Shown: one piece after another, positions 15,109 through 20,416 of the stretch | Numbering within the stretch: the stretch's first letter is position 1 | Layout of the letters: every line of letters begins with the position of its first letter | Assembly: GCF_012927165.1 (NCBI RefSeq) | Contig: NZ_JABBGA010000004.1 | Span: forward strand, 248,001-312,000 | Origin: Zoogloea dura | GTDB taxonomy: Bacteria; Pseudomonadota; Gammaproteobacteria; Burkholderiales; Rhodocyclaceae | Reading direction: 5' to 3' | Length of the DNA: 64,000 bases | Notes under the pieces: generated by a model | Told to the model about the DNA's origin: nothing | Seen by the model: the letters and a program-made list of their open reading frames with translations, nothing else | Database searches by the model: none | Program-made: the position numbers and the translations under genes

Positions 15109-15588
15109 TCAGACGGAGCGGATGAAATTTGCCTCGACGCGGCAATCTCCGCCCTCGCACAGGCGCCGGACCTGGCCGAAGCACTCGGCCAGCGCCATGC
15201 AGGTGCGGATGTCTTCCACCAGGAACTGCCGCAATGCAATGCACAAGGCCATTTCGCTGACGCCCTCCTCGGAGGCCGAGGCGGCACGGATCGACCTCAG
15301 CACGACGGGGTAGACCGGATCCTCGCCAAGCATCACCGCCAACCTCACCCGGATATGCGGTGCGTTGCCCGAAAGCTCGGGATGCAGCTCCAGCCTCCTG
15401 CACGCCTGCAGGATGCACTCCCTCACCACCCGGTGGTGTCCCTTGCGCTGGTCCATGGCAATACGCTGCAGGCTCTCCTCCCAGACGGCAGGAATCCGGC
15501 TGCGGGCGCCTGCACGCTCCCGCCAGGCCTGCCAGGCGAGGACAGCCAAGGCCAGAAGGCCAATCAGGGCGAATAAGTGCATGTTCAT
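15109..15588 (-). CDS. Hypothetical membrane-anchored protein of the signalling locus
   Basis: About 159 aa, family not recognised. A single hydrophobic helix at residues 3-21 (HLFALIGLLALAVLAWQAW) is followed by a soluble, mainly helical domain with several cysteines, including CILQACRRL, MALCIALRQF, RTCMALAECFG and CEGGDCRVE. The start at 15588 is favoured by GGGAG nine bases upstream over an ATG at 15618. It lies 72 bases downstream of the first regulator gene, on the same strand, and may be the last member of that block. The helix-then-domain plan suggests an inner-membrane anchor with a cytoplasmic domain. No function is claimed. Confidence 0.65.
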   Translation of the reverse strand: MNMHLFALIGLLALAVLAWQAWRERAGARSRIPAVWEESLQRIAMDQRKGHHRVVRECILQACRRLELHPELSGNAPHIRVRLAVMLGEDPVYPVVLRSIRAASASEEGVSEMALCIALRQFLVEDIRTCMALAECFGQVRRLCEGGDCRVEANFIRSV

Positions 15589-15660
15589 GGTCCGGCGCTC
15601 CCAAAGCGGTACTTGCACTGCAAGCTTAGGGTGGGCGGACCCGCAGACCGTGCAATTAAT

Positions 15661-16422
15661 TCACGGTGACCGAGAGAATTTGCGAGGCAGCAGATCAGGG
15701 TGGGCCAGCGCGGTACCGGACGAATCCTCCACCTGCTCCAGGCGATAGCCGCTTCCATACGAAGCACTCAGGCGGAAACCTCGCCCGGGATGGATGTCCA
15801 GCTTGCGCCGGATCCGGCTCACATGCGTGTCCACCGTTCTTGAAACCGCCACCAGGCGGCTTCCCCACACCACTTCGAGCAGCTTTTCGCGGGACAACAG
15901 GCGGCCCGGATTGCGGAAGAAAAAGACACTGAGCTCGAACTCCTTGTCGGTGAGCACAACCCGACGGTCTTCAATGAAGGCCTGCTTGCTCACCATATCG
16001 AAACGATAGGGCGGCAGTTCGAGCAGTCCCCTGCGGGCAGCCATTCGTCCTTCGCTTCGACGCAACAAGGCACAACTGCGGGCAACGAGCTCCCTACCGC
16101 GCGCAACGGTGATGTAATCGTCAGCGCCCTGCTCCAGCATCTCGGCAAGGCGCGCCTCGTTGTCCTCACAGTTGTAGAGGATGACGGACGCTCCACCGCT
16201 GGGCCTGGACTGCAGCCACCGGAAGGCCGCCTCCACCTCCCGGGCTTGCTGGTCCAGGAGGAAGAGCTGGAATTCCGCCTCCAGGGCTTCGCTGGTCAGC
16301 TCGAAAGCGTCCATGAACACCTGGACGCGCAGCCCCGCGAGTTCAAGCCTGCGTATCAGCGGCGCTGGTGCCGCCCCCGACCCCGCGCTCAGCAGGGCCA
16401 CATTTCTGCACGTCCGGGTCAT
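15661..16422 (-). CDS. OmpR-like regulator with degenerate receiver domain
   Basis: 253 aa: N-terminal receiver-like domain (about 1-125) plus C-terminal winged helix (about 135-235) with the OmpR-type segments LTDKEFELSVFFFRNPGRLL, SRTVDTHVSRIRRKL and GSGYRLE. The receiver keeps an aspartate at the phosphorylation position (FLLDQQ, Asp57) but lacks the N-terminal acidic pair that binds Mg2+ (NVALLSAGSG in place of the usual ILLVEDD). The conserved lysine-proline is also gone (YITVARGREL in place of YLVKPF). DNA binding is likely, but phosphorylation is doubtful. A 7-bp direct repeat of period 10 lies 64-80 bases upstream of the ATG. Confidence 0.88.
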   Translation of the reverse strand: MTRTCRNVALLSAGSGAAPAPLIRRLELAGLRVQVFMDAFELTSEALEAEFQLFLLDQQAREVEAAFRWLQSRPSGGASVILYNCEDNEARLAEMLEQGADDYITVARGRELVARSCALLRRSEGRMAARRGLLELPPYRFDMVSKQAFIEDRRVVLTDKEFELSVFFFRNPGRLLSREKLLEVVWGSRLVAVSRTVDTHVSRIRRKLDIHPGRGFRLSASYGSGYRLEQVEDSSGTALAHPDLLPRKFSRSP

Positions 16423-16485
16423 CGACTACCCTAAAGGATATTGCCACCCCGGACATCCTACGCAAATTATTGAAGCGTAAAGCGT

Positions 16486-16502
16486 TTTGACTAAATTTGA
16501 CT
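16486..16502. promoter_or_regulatory. Direct repeat TTTGACT-AAA-TTTGACT, possible OmpR-type box
   Basis: Two perfect 7-bp direct repeats have a 10-bp period, so they face the same side of the helix, the pattern bound by tandem winged-helix regulators. They are upstream of the regulator gene that starts at 16422. On the minus strand the AATAAT at 16466-16471 could serve as a -10. A second short repeat AAGCGTA/AAGCGTT adjoins at 16473-16486. Assignment to the local regulators is an inference. Confidence 0.4.
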
Positions 16503-16534
16503 CTACTGACGACACCCCGGCCGTGCCACAAGGC

Positions 16535-17320
16535 TCAGGCCGAGCAGGCCTGCACACCCGTGGAGTGATGTCCGGAGGTGGAATCGCCCGGCTCATCCAG
16601 AGAGATGGTGACCAGCTCCGACACCCAGGGCTGACGCGAACGCTCCAGGCGATAGCCGGTACCGTAGACTGCGGACAGATGGAATTCATTGCCCCTCAGC
16701 AGCGCCAGCTTGCGCCGCAGGCGGCTGACGTGGGTATCGATGGTCCGGGACTCCATCGGCCGGGACACCTGCCAGATCATCTCGTGGATGTGCCCCCGGG
16801 AAATCATGCGGCCGATATTGCGGAACAGGAAGAGCCCCAGGTCGAATTCCCTCTCGGTCAGATCGATCACTTCGCCCCGCAACCATACCGTCCTGGTCTG
16901 CAGGTCGAAACGGTAGGATCCGAAGACGAGTTCGGACTCCAAGCGGAACAGATCCGGATGGCGCCGCCGCAACACGGCGCCGATGCGCCCCACCAGCTCA
17001 CGGCCCGCCAGGGGACGGGAGATGTAGTCCTCGGCCCCCGCTGCCAGCACTTCCGACAGCAGCTCCTCATCGTCGATGCAGTTGATCAGCATCACCGGCA
17101 AATCGCTGCCTGGAAGGGCACGCACCCGCTGCACGAAAGAGGCGCAGTCGTCGCCGAGCAAGACACCATCGGCCAGCACCAGATCGAAGCTCTCCCGGCT
17201 CAGGGCCCGGCGCAGCTTCTGCTCCTGATCAAAACCATGGATCGCATGCCCCACCCCCTGCAACAGCCCGGACAAGGCCTCGGCCAATTGCACTTCGCCG
17301 ATCAGCAGCGCCAGTCGCAT
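16535..17320 (-). CDS. OmpR-like regulator with degenerate receiver domain
   Basis: 261 aa from the chosen start, which follows GAGGGGAAG; an ATG at 17347 is possible but has no such site. Receiver about 1-120, winged helix about 130-230 with LTEREFDLGLFLFRNIGRMI, SRTIDTHVSRLRRKL and YGTGYRLERS. It keeps the aspartate in LVLADG but the N-terminal acidic pair is absent (RLALLIGEVQ), and the lysine-proline is arginine-proline (YISRPLAGREL). The winged helix resembles that of the next gene downstream, which suggests a duplication. The tail after the winged helix (about 35 residues) is hydrophilic and not conserved. Confidence 0.88.
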   Translation of the reverse strand: MRLALLIGEVQLAEALSGLLQGVGHAIHGFDQEQKLRRALSRESFDLVLADGVLLGDDCASFVQRVRALPGSDLPVMLINCIDDEELLSEVLAAGAEDYISRPLAGRELVGRIGAVLRRRHPDLFRLESELVFGSYRFDLQTRTVWLRGEVIDLTEREFDLGLFLFRNIGRMISRGHIHEMIWQVSRPMESRTIDTHVSRLRRKLALLRGNEFHLSAVYGTGYRLERSRQPWVSELVTISLDEPGDSTSGHHSTGVQACSA

Positions 17321-17417
17321 CAATACTTCCCCTCGGAACAGGATCACCAGAACGGAGGGGGATGCTAGACAGGTATGCCCCGGACAAGAAATGCTGACCG
17401 ATTCTCACCGCTTTCAG

Positions 17418-18113
17418 TCAGAGCAGGCGGGCGTGCTCGGTGAAGGTATAGCCACGCCCGTAGTCCGACACCACCGGCAGGCGCAGACCACAGCGAGACT
17501 GGGCCTTCGAGCGCAGCCGGCTGACCATGGCCTCGAGACGGTGGGCGCTGTAGTCAGGCTCGTCGCCGGCCAGCAGGACGACCAGGTCATCCTTGCGGGC
17601 GTGCCGTTCGGGATCAGCGAAAAGCGCGGCGAGAAAACGGGTCTCGCCCACATTGAGCAGAAAGGTGCCGCCATTCGGCGCGGTGAGGAGGCGACGCTCG
17701 CCATCCAGGTACCAGGGCTGAGGCAGCATGCCGGAAGCCAGCGGAGCCAGGTTGCCCTGCAGGCGGCGATGCACGCTGAGCAGGGTGGCCTCCAGCTCCT
17801 CCGGATCCACCGGCTTGACCAGGTAGGCATCGGCACCATCCCGCAGGCTGGCGATGCGCAGCTCCCGCTCGCCGCGCCCGGTGCACATCACGATGCCCGA
17901 GCGGATGTAGCGCCGTGCCTGGCGGCAGAAGCTCAAGCCGTCACCGTCCGGCAGGTTGATGTCGAGGACCAGCAGGTCATAGGGGCGGGCCAGCCGGGCG
18001 TCCGCCTCCCGGATGGTACCGGCAACACACACCGAAAACCCCGCCCCGGACAGGAAGGCGGAAATCTCGGCACACAGGTCGCGGTCATCCTCTACCAGAA
18101 GCACCGAGATCAT
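17418..18113 (-). CDS. Response regulator with canonical receiver
   Basis: 231 aa. The receiver has every phosphorylation residue: LLVEDDRDL (acid pair), LLVLDINLPDGDGL (phospho-acceptor Asp about 54) and AYLVKPVD (Lys). The C-terminal half is a divergent winged helix (about 135-228) ending SDYGRGYTFTEHA, with MVSRLRSKAQ as the likely recognition helix. Its ATG overlaps the kinase stop by four bases (ATGA), so it is the cognate partner of the 7TMR-DISM kinase. It stands apart from the next two regulators, whose receivers are degenerate. Confidence 0.92.
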   Translation of the reverse strand: MISVLLVEDDRDLCAEISAFLSGAGFSVCVAGTIREADARLARPYDLLVLDINLPDGDGLSFCRQARRYIRSGIVMCTGRGERELRIASLRDGADAYLVKPVDPEELEATLLSVHRRLQGNLAPLASGMLPQPWYLDGERRLLTAPNGGTFLLNVGETRFLAALFADPERHARKDDLVVLLAGDEPDYSAHRLEAMVSRLRSKAQSRCGLRLPVVSDYGRGYTFTEHARLL

Positions 18114-20161
18114 GCCGGCACCTCCTTGCCAGTCACCTCCGGAAGCCCCTTCGGACCAGCTGGCAGGCGCAGGGTGAACCAGGTCTCCCCGTCACGATGC
18201 CCTCCCACCAGCGCCCCTCCATGGACACGCGCCACGTGGCTGGCCAGGGCCAAGCCGATACCGAAGCCGCCTTTGGCGCTGACCGTCTTGCGGCTGCGGC
18301 GGAACACCTGGAACGGACGCTCGGCCAGATCCGGCGGCAGCCCTTCCCCCGCGTTGATCACCCGATAGATCACCATGCCGGCGGTGGCCTCCACCTCCAG
18401 GCGGATCGGCGTTCCCTCCGGCGAGTACTTGGCAGCGTTGTCGAGCAGGTTGGACAAGGCCAGCACCACCAGCTCGGCGTCCATCGACACGTCCTGCTCG
18501 GGAGCCCCCCTTTTCTGGAAGCGCAGATCTCGCCCACCGTGCAGTGCCCGGATTTCGTCCAGCGCCCGCAGGGCCGGCAGGCTGACCGGTTCGAGGGCGA
18601 AATCCGGCTCGAAATCGGGCTGACCGATGCGCTGCAGGCGCAGATGGCGATCGATCAGGCCGCTCATGCGCTGGGCCGCATGATTGAGCCGGGCAAGACG
18701 TTCGGCATTCTCCGGCACCACCTCGGGCAGGCTGCGGCGCAGGTTGCCCAGGCCGGTGAGCAACACCCCGAGGGGGCTGCGCAGTTCATGGGCGACGAAT
18801 GCGAAGAACAGGGACTGCTCGTTGCGCAGGCGCTCCTCCTGCTCAGCCAGGGAGCGCTGGGCGGTGGCCTCGCCATCTGCCGCCTCCCGCGCCTGGCGCT
18901 CATCCCGCAGCTCCGACAGGATGCCGAAGTGCAGGAAGATCGCGTAGGCGATGAGCGCCGGCGCCGCCGTCTCGAAGGTGGAGTTCCAGGTCAGCAGGCC
19001 GAGGGCCCTCGATACATGCACCAGCATCAGGCCGGTAAAACACAGATAGGCACCGAGCATCCAGCCCGCCCCCAGGTGCCCGTCCCGCAGATTGCGGTAG
19101 CACGCCATCACGCCCACCACGGCGATGAAGGGCTGCAGCCACTGCACCACCGGCATCACGTGCACATAGAGGCCCAGTGGAACACTCGCTGCACTCAGCA
19201 CGATGGCAGCCGCGAGATAAGGCAGGACCCGGTCGAAAGCCGGAAAGTGCTCGGCCAGGCGCAAAGGCTTGCGCACCAGCAGCATCGAGAAACCATAGAA
19301 GACGCAATGCAGCACCCGGGTCAGGCCATGGGCTACCCAATCGCTCTCCGGAAAGAAATACTGGGCCAGCAATCCATTGGCGGCCGCCACCGCCACTGCC
19401 ATCATGAACATGAAGGCGGCAAAGGCCAGATAAAGCCGCTGGCCGGTCCAGAACCAGTTGACCAGGTTCATCGCCGACACCGTGAGCACCAGCCCGATGG
19501 CCATCCCGATGCCGAGCAGGTCGCGCTGGACCTGCACACGGAAGGACCACGGCTGCCAGACCGTGAAGGCCGTGGACATGCTCGTGCTGGCCTTGATCCG
19601 GACATAGAACACCTGCGGCGCGCCGTCCGGCAGTTCCAGCGGAAACACCGCCGTGCGATAGACGATGGCCCGCGCATTGACCGGGAAGCGATCTCCTGCC
19701 CGCAGCTCCTCCCAGCTGGTCCCGGCCTGCCGCCGCGCGTAGAAGCGGACGTCGTCCAGGTAGGGGGCACGGGATTCCAGCCACCACTCGACCGGTGCCA
19801 GAGGCGCGCGTCGCAGGCACAGGCGGACCCACACCACGTCCCGGGTGTAGCCAAGCGCCAGGCCATCGGCTTTCAGCGGCGCGAATCGCTCCTGGAACGC
19901 CGCGGCGGACACCTCCTCGATGCCCAGCCGGCCACCGCCATCACGGTAGATCTCCAGGTCGGCCCCGTTCAGGAGGCGTTGCCCCTCGTCATCGGCCAGC
20001 ACCGCGCTCGACGGGGTACAGGCCAGGCAGGCAGAGGCCAGCAGGATCAGCAGCGCTGCAACCAGGACGTGCAGCGGCAGGCTGCGAAAGGCGGGTCCGG
20101 CGAGGCGAGCCCTCACCCAGAACGAGAATCCCGACGAAGATTGGATATGACGGAGCAGCAT
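18110..20161 (-). CDS. 7TMR-DISM-type hybrid-less sensor histidine kinase
   Basis: 683 aa inner-membrane sensor. An N-terminal hydrophobic segment (about 29-48) acts as signal or anchor. Next come a periplasmic 7TMR-DISM extracellular domain (about 60-205, with VVWVRLCLRR and YLDDVRFYARR), seven membrane helices (about 215-420), a short coiled coil, and the HisKA H-box FVAHELRSPLGVLL at about residue 460. The ATPase has NLLDNAAKYSPEG (N-box) and GGFGIGLALASH (G-box). There is no receiver in the same chain. DISM sensors usually perceive small molecules, often carbohydrates, at the periplasmic face. The ligand is unknown. It is first in a minus-strand run of kinase, three regulators and a membrane-anchored unknown. 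Confidence 0.93.
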   Translation of the reverse strand: MLLRHIQSSSGFSFWVRARLAGPAFRSLPLHVLVAALLILLASACLACTPSSAVLADDEGQRLLNGADLEIYRDGGGRLGIEEVSAAAFQERFAPLKADGLALGYTRDVVWVRLCLRRAPLAPVEWWLESRAPYLDDVRFYARRQAGTSWEELRAGDRFPVNARAIVYRTAVFPLELPDGAPQVFYVRIKASTSMSTAFTVWQPWSFRVQVQRDLLGIGMAIGLVLTVSAMNLVNWFWTGQRLYLAFAAFMFMMAVAVAAANGLLAQYFFPESDWVAHGLTRVLHCVFYGFSMLLVRKPLRLAEHFPAFDRVLPYLAAAIVLSAASVPLGLYVHVMPVVQWLQPFIAVVGVMACYRNLRDGHLGAGWMLGAYLCFTGLMLVHVSRALGLLTWNSTFETAAPALIAYAIFLHFGILSELRDERQAREAADGEATAQRSLAEQEERLRNEQSLFFAFVAHELRSPLGVLLTGLGNLRRSLPEVVPENAERLARLNHAAQRMSGLIDRHLRLQRIGQPDFEPDFALEPVSLPALRALDEIRALHGGRDLRFQKRGAPEQDVSMDAELVVLALSNLLDNAAKYSPEGTPIRLEVEATAGMVIYRVINAGEGLPPDLAERPFQVFRRSRKTVSAKGGFGIGLALASHVARVHGGALVGGHRDGETWFTLRLPAGPKGLPEVTGKEVPA

Positions 20162-20416
20162 GCGGGCGCAAGGTTAGCCCAATCCGGGGCACTCACGTAG
20201 ACCCTTACCGAAACTCACCGCAGCCAGACCGCCCGCCAGCCGCAAACGCCCGCCCCGCAACGCGGGCCGGAATTTGCCCGGCGCCTCGGGAGCATTGCCA
20301 AAATAGGCGCTCCGCCCCTTGCGCTCCCGCCGACTTGGCTCCAAGCTATATGAATCGGGAAGCCCGTGGAGCGAGGCCGCGAGGCATGCCGAAGCCAACA
20401 ATAAGGAGGGTAGATA

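Follow-up and report, generated by a model that had tools for sequence, protein, structure and literature searches.

Why should a single sensor histidine kinase be encoded beside three OmpR-type regulators, two of which no longer have a standard receiver? The question is raised by the sludge bacterium Zoogloea, on Zoogloea dura contig NZ_JABBGA010000004.1, of which positions 248,001 to 312,000 (64,000 nucleotides, hereafter the window) were analysed; coordinates below are positions in the window. Along the minus strand lie a 7TMR-DISM sensor histidine kinase (HK, 18110..20161), the regulator RR1 (17418..18113), the winged-helix regulators RR2 (16535..17320) and RR3 (15661..16422), and a small protein, UNK. 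The original prediction, all of whose gene positions were confirmed, read these genes as a branched circuit in which RR1 and two phosphorylation-independent regulators share targets, perhaps as heterodimers. Our comparative analysis points instead to a two-tier transcription cascade, in which HK would act through RR1 to raise the amounts of RR2 and RR3, which would themselves act without phosphorylation. We put the probability of this reading at about 0.55.

A canonical pair and two pseudo-receiver regulators

HK contains the domains 7TMR-DISMED2, 7TMR-DISM_7TM, HisKA and HATPase_c, each above the Pfam cut-off, and its domain content is that of a 7TMR-DISM kinase. Its translation includes what we take to be an H-box (HELRSPL) and an N-box. 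The G1 box reads VINAGEGLPP, with Asn in the place of the usual Asp of DxGxG, and several relatives also have VIN.G. HK overlaps RR1 by ATGA, and RR1 has the complete receiver quintet (E8, D9, D51, T78 and K100), so the coupling of the kinase to a canonical regulator stands as originally described. The output domain of RR1 is atypical, scoring 24.3 bits against Trans_reg_C, just below the cut-off of 26.2; RR1 matches the OmpR model at E 3e-26, yet with 92 bits against a model cut-off of 331.

RR2 and RR3 had been described as lacking the acidic pair and the conserved Lys while keeping the acceptor Asp, and this was borne out (LLIGE and SRP in RR2, LLSAG and TVAR in RR3). Both have also lost the conserved Thr, at which Asn followed by Cys is found, and their quintets read I,G,D,N,R and S,A,D,N,V, respectively. 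Neither is an aspartate-less receiver (ALR), since the acceptor Asp is present. The alignment to Pfam Response_reg that had been suggested succeeded for RR1 (E 8e-20) and RR2 (4e-9) and fell below the cut-off for RR3 (0.035). Trans_reg_C is clear in RR2 (E 8e-17) and RR3 (6e-19). Both proteins are thus OmpR/PhoB-type regulators with a Trans_reg_C winged helix and a receiver fold, the latter sub-threshold in RR3 and taken there from its AlphaFold2 (AF2) model (predicted local distance difference test score (pLDDT) 78, predicted template modelling score (pTM) 0.50), whose best Foldseek matches are OmpR/PhoB regulators.

The residues were tabulated for 21 degenerate regulators, 13 RR1 proteins and 66 other OmpR-type receivers. 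The full quintet is missing from every degenerate regulator (21/21) and present in all 66 others, many of which are close copies. Within the degenerate family the Thr has become Asn in 19/21, with Cys following in 20/21, and the acceptor Asp is retained in 16/21 and replaced by Glu or Ala in the remaining five. The three species compared are those of the window, SB3 and UWPOB_ZOOG1, and all frames are open in each. Their RR1 receivers do not differ at a synonymous divergence (dS) of 0.41-0.67, giving a ratio of nonsynonymous to synonymous divergence (dN/dS) of 0; for the RR2 receiver this ratio is 0.07-0.11, for that of RR3, the fastest changing, 0.22-0.35, and for the DNA-binding domains of RR2 and RR3 0.09-0.16. 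Because the frames are open, dN/dS is far below 1 and the quintet is full in 66/66 other receivers, the degeneration of RR2 and RR3, judged by these comparisons, is neither chance nor simple decay. The original view of RR2 and RR3 as phosphorylation-independent is probable, with indirect signs in the replaced acceptor Asp of those five relatives and in the retained dimer-face residues described below. The Asn-Cys pair in place of Thr is possibly a new input or a structural lock.

Predicted operators before the pseudo-receiver genes

A predicted RR1 operator, GGTGAGAATC GGTCAGCATT (17390..17409, minus strand), precedes RR2 and is followed after 22 bp by a predicted -10 element, TAGCAT (17362..17367). 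Two such 10-bp direct repeats, with the consensus GGTSAGNATT, precede the degenerate gene in 14/14 RR1-linked loci (13 loci of the genus set and SB3), in each case followed by exactly 22 bp and then TAnnnT. None of the six degenerate genes that lack RR1 has this geometry (0/6), and three of the six are close relatives. Activators of the OmpR type usually bind close to the -35 region, at direct repeats of 10-11 bp in tandem. A repeat also precedes HK in 7/7 kinase loci, with a spacing of 22 in four and 23 in three. Scored with a matrix built from sites other than those of SB3, G157 and G165, the HK copies and the copies of G008 (a genome of another genus), the HK copies are clear in G151, G164 and G167, all at spacing 22 (20.5-28.3); G163 has a weak one with the same spacing (12.0), and those of the window, SB3 and G158 are also weak (10.6-10.9) and have a spacing of 23. 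The window copy, GGTGAGTTTC GGTAAGGGTC (20200..20219, score 10.9), is followed by N23-TAACCT and was found by geometry. The predicted HK promoter and the annotated ATG (20161-20219) would together give a nearly leaderless mRNA, so HK may really start deeper in the frame, or this promoter may be spurious. Before RR3, a predicted variant, AGTCAAATTT AGTCAAAACG (16483..16502), with a putative -10 element TAGGAT (16455..16460), has the same geometry and a different half-site, with N22-TAnnnT in 3/3 species.

RR1 is most likely the protein that binds the repeat, because the site goes with RR1: it is present at 14/14 linked and 0/6 unlinked degenerate genes, at 7/7 HK loci, and in G008, where an HK-RR1-HK locus without a degenerate gene has tandem copies beside the first kinase. 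A pattern search of 24 genomes (23 Zoogloea and G008), allowing up to one mismatch, gave 16 exact matches across the 12 Zoogloea that have RR1, 16/16 of them inside the module, none in the 11 Zoogloea without it, and six in G008. With one mismatch there were 17 matches in the 23 Zoogloea genomes, two in the module and 15 elsewhere, and five in a reversed control of 24 genomes. A relaxed scan for the geometry over 1.57 of 5.83 Mb (27% of the window genome) gave three hits, before HK, RR2 and RR3, and none elsewhere, while one simulation of equal size gave none. The shared target set of the original prediction thus found no counterpart, as both the exact operators in Zoogloea and the relaxed hits in the scanned 27% lie within the module, and this confinement points to a cascade. 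The genes that RR1 clearly targets in Zoogloea appear to be those of the degenerate regulators, joined in some species by the RR1 operon itself.

In G008 (L230, L231 and L184) the repeat, besides adjoining HK, stands before genes for an SBP_bac_3 protein, a dCache hybrid kinase and an HD-domain protein, and these copies suggest a wider ancestral regulon. The half-site pattern GTCAAAN4GTCAAA of the RR3 promoter occurs exactly nowhere else in the genome; it was rejected as the mark of a wider regulon, with three matches at up to one mismatch against eight in the reversed control. The recognition helix of RR1 (His in kinase loci, Pro or Ala in kinase-less ones) co-varies with base 4 of the operator (G in 7/14, C in 7/14), which is not used as evidence because it reflects a single split and G008 combines Arg with a G-type site.

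Distribution, descent and loss of the kinase

The distribution was followed in 23 Zoogloea genomes; SB3 is additional to these and is counted only among the 14 operator loci and in the three-species comparisons. A degenerate regulator directly follows RR1 in 13/13 Zoogloea RR1 loci, six of which include the kinase, so the predicted linkage of the degenerate genes to the pair is non-random with respect to RR1. Kinase homologues at E 1e-40 occur in 6/23 genomes, and kinase, typical regulator and pseudo-receiver regulator share one locus in the six kinase loci of the genus set and in SB3. The gap between UNK and the CBS-domain gene holds HK-RR1-RR2-RR3 in 2/23 genomes (the window and G158, taken to be UWPOB_ZOOG1), as it does in SB3; HK-RR1 and one degenerate regulator in G167, where the kinase is split across two contig ends; RR1 and a degenerate regulator without a kinase in seven (G150, G151, G153, G156, G157, G162 and G165); a lone degenerate regulator in three (G036, G155 and G164); and no regulator in nine, G161 being unreadable. 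HK-RR1 with a degenerate regulator is found at other locations in G151, G163 and G164, and G151 is the only one of the seven genomes with a kinase-less locus to have a kinase, away from that locus. The kinase-plus-three order that the original prediction proposed to look for in relatives was therefore recovered in SB3 and UWPOB_ZOOG1 and nowhere else. Among 13 HK- or RR1-similar loci from the family's other genera, 11 include an RR1-like gene and none has a degenerate regulator, two of the contigs (L192 and L194) ending just downstream; apart from repeats of known places, the family-wide searches scored up to nine or up to three candidates in each genome.

A regulator tree was built from rows cut to 235 amino acids; it includes a single copy of a neighbouring regulator, RRb, and leaves aside 16 orphan-regulator loci that are for the most part close copies. 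All 21 degenerate regulators group in a single clade, itself nested in a larger one that also holds a canonical orphan OmpR-type regulator found across the family; RR1 falls elsewhere in the tree. An origin of RR2 and RR3 as duplicates of RR1 is ruled out by this tree, and recent duplication of one from the other is unsupported, as they sit on separate branches of the degenerate clade. The orphan, whose own copy in this genome (L002) is 43% identical to RR2, is the nearest relative type of RR2 and RR3, but it has a full quintet. No HK or RR1 gene adjoins it within its 3.7 kb, and its neighbours are presumably mscL and a metallo-beta-lactamase-fold gene. At L087 and L092, members of the degenerate clade adjoin other histidine kinases; the clade has therefore joined other two-component loci.

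RR1 was placed in a tree with ten relatives from other genera and rooted on nine of them, ten RR1-like rows from the 13 family loci being strong enough. The kinase-bearing RR1 proteins form a clade of six (support 92/88), all with a full quintet, and the kinase-less ones a clade of seven (support 100/99), none with a full quintet. In the latter, Thr has become Leu, Val or Met, Lys has become Arg, His or Ala, and the Tyr three residues before the Lys has become Cys, with the Asp retained; in G151 the kinase-less RR1 has retained an acidic pair, Glu-Glu. On the tree, the loss of the kinase and the decay of RR1 are a single event.

The dimerisation face

The alpha4-beta5-alpha5 face was mapped on a PhoB-like protein of the window genome. 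In PhoB, residues of this face, including the D101-R115 bridge, hold the active dimer together. D101, E111, R115 and R122 (PhoB numbering) are retained in 21/21 degenerate regulators, while RR1 has Ala101 and Thr115 in 13/13. Because of these two replacements the D101-R115 bridge is impossible in either direction between RR1 and a degenerate regulator, which leaves Arg91 of RR1 with E111 as one possible contact. This speaks against heterodimers with RR1, as the original prediction had it, and a heterodimer through the standard face looks unlikely. The degenerate set looks built to dimerise with itself, since it has kept the usual face residues throughout while RR1 has changed two of them.

A proposed cascade and its alternatives

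We propose that HK phosphorylates RR1 and that phosphorylated RR1 would bind the tandem 10-bp repeats that cover the -35 region, immediately before the -10 element, at promoters of its own locus, the sites being those identified by comparison. Binding would be weak before HK-RR1, providing autoregulation, strong before RR2, and perhaps extend to the variant before RR3. RR2 and RR3 may then need no phosphorylation to dimerise by the usual alpha4-beta5-alpha5 face, their activity being set by the amount made, and would carry the output to further targets. In Zoogloea with kinase-less loci, RR1 would itself now be a pseudo-receiver, no member having a complete phosphorylation site, with its operator kept. 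A stepwise history can be offered tentatively: output may have been handed to pseudo-receivers of an unrelated orphan lineage, whose genes became the main detected targets, after which, in one lineage, the kinase would have been lost and RR1 would have degenerated with operator and target kept, so that within one genus a two-component system became a cascade free of phosphorylation. The Asn-Cys pair might then provide an input, thiol-based for instance.

Several observations weigh against the cascade. RR2 and RR3 keep the acceptor Asp. Since kinase loss and RR1 decay coincide in one event, the contrast between six and seven RR1 proteins is not statistically independent; one of the seven kinase-less genomes, G156, is 72% complete, and its contig begins at RR1. 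Four of the seven HK copies score only 10.6-12.0, where 1.2 matches per 64 kb at a score of at least 10 are expected by chance, and the HK copy of the window clade has a spacing of 23, with the -10 element about 10 nucleotides from the annotated ATG. The RR3 site differs from the consensus at 5/15 specified bases by hand count, and its user may be RR2 or a different regulator. In G008 the copies beside HK are oriented towards a divergent gene and have no N22-TAnnnT; this orientation weighs most in lowering our confidence in the cascade and, with the weak HK copies, makes autoregulation by the degenerate regulators somewhat more probable. Some of the 15 one-mismatch matches outside the module may be real, and the matrix alone flags C1:525663 (score 20.3), a site without the geometry; given these and the control count of five, other targets are possible. 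The hits inside the module are partly there by construction, because the patterns were written after the sites had been seen; for the same reason it is the absences elsewhere that are independent and carry the weight.

Some of these observations also bear on other explanations. The operator could belong to the degenerate regulators, as autoregulation, with RR1 acting on other, unseen targets: the best sites directly precede degenerate genes, 4/7 HK copies are weak, and the RR3 promoter, with the same geometry and another half-site, would suit RR2 acting on RR3. The clear HK sites in G151, G164 and G167, the copies in G008 though its HK locus has no degenerate gene, and the lack of a site at all six degenerate genes without RR1 make this rather unlikely. 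A branched circuit, with RR1 and the degenerate regulators on shared targets and partly as heterodimers, would suit their tight linkage, and in the published account of CmrRST the typical regulator CmrR and the pseudo-receiver CmrT form such a heterodimer in pull-downs (PMC12548384). We consider it improbable, as D101 and R115 are absent from RR1 in 13/13 and both present in the degenerate regulators in 21/21; moreover, no second class of shared site emerged from two scans, neither of which was built to find one.

Two further explanations assign the degenerate regulators a lesser part. As relics, they would be decaying duplicates with little function, in keeping with the fast-changing RR3 receiver (dN/dS 0.22-0.35) and the nine genus genomes with no regulator at the locus. 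The open frames, a dN/dS below 0.2 in every DNA-binding domain, the dimer-face residues kept in 21/21 and the retained promoter geometry render this very improbable. Models in which a degenerate receiver binds HK or RR1 and tunes the flow of phosphate, as phosphatase or by titration, belong to a class discussed for CmrT in a recent review (PMC12632262); here such a role has the slimmest chance, because degenerate regulators remain beside RR1 in seven kinase-less loci and RR2 and RR3 keep a typical DNA-binding domain.

UNK and flanking features

UNK (15109..15588, minus strand, with its ATG at 15588), whose N-terminus is hydrophobic, is known only from Zoogloea, where it is present in 23/23 genomes, and panC lies within about 2 kb downstream of it in 19/19 named loci. 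In G166 a second, partial copy lies on a short contig that lacks panC. No match to Pfam or NCBIfam was found up to E 1; against the PDB there was no sequence match below E 0.25 and no fold match with E <=0.001. The AF2 model (pLDDT 84.9) has an N-terminal helix at residues 2-26, probably a membrane anchor, and gives weak winged-helix matches in Foldseek (best E 0.03). A search of a 399-genome sample of the order, scoring up to nine candidates per genome, returned the window genome and one weak partial match and did not clearly find UNK outside the genus. UNK is accordingly a genus-specific neighbour by distribution, and may share the RR3 transcript. In the gap between RR3 and UNK, GTGAATTAATTGCACGG at the RR3 stop (about 15647-15666) is identical in three species, and in two of the three it belongs to an inverted repeat, CCGTG...CACGG. 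The module is flanked by what we take to be panC and a CBS-domain gene.

Comparison with known systems

No paper on this system was found among the literature listings for Zoogloea and two-component systems. Its component parts are of kinds already known; what appears new is their arrangement, the dedicated operators and the graded series of losses. Pseudo-receivers of OmpR type that dimerise without phosphorylation include ChxR of Chlamydia and HP1043/HsrA of Helicobacter, which are orphans by the count of a 2025 review (PMC12632262), whereas RR2 and RR3 sit under a two-component pair. Among the 20 atypical regulators that this review counts, CmrT and FrzS are the only non-orphans, CmrT belonging to an otherwise normal two-component system, and the review outlines a model in which a two-component system changes the amount of a constitutively active pseudo-receiver (PMC12632262).

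For kinase-less RR1 the parallel is CosR/CosS of Campylobacter, where an OmpR-type regulator is described as lacking the phosphorylation residue in species without the kinase gene (PMC3938529). As reported there, CosR is essential and has lost the acceptor Asp, while in kinase-less RR1 the Asp stays and Thr and Lys go. Unlike CosR as so described, kinase-less RR1 also keeps a neighbouring pseudo-receiver gene and its operator.

The closest likeness in gene arrangement is to CmrRST of Clostridioides difficile, in which the kinase CmrS, the typical regulator CmrR and the pseudo-receiver regulator CmrT are encoded together. In the published accounts CmrR binds before its own operon (PMC12694794, PMC12548384), and most genes outside the locus are under the control of CmrT, not CmrR (PMC12694794); we propose the same split of roles between RR1 on one side and RR2 and RR3 on the other. 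The details differ. CmrT is reported to have D to E and DGD changes with T and K kept (PMC12548384), whereas RR2 and RR3 keep D and have lost T and K, and so do not have a CmrT-like active site. CmrR is reported to have an inverted repeat as its site, ahead of the operon; here, direct repeats precede each pseudo-receiver gene. Unlike CmrRST, the window encodes two pseudo-receivers, and a lineage without the kinase exists. The Zoogloea module is best described as an apparently unrelated parallel to CmrRST, the likeness being one of gene arrangement. If the cascade is real, it would be an unrelated case of a pseudo-receiver controlled by its amount, genus-wide and with predicted operators before the pseudo-receiver genes. 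Close relatives with and without the kinase, together with these operators, would make the amount-control model testable, and the Zoogloea loci would offer a natural series in which to follow the loss of phosphorylation by receivers.

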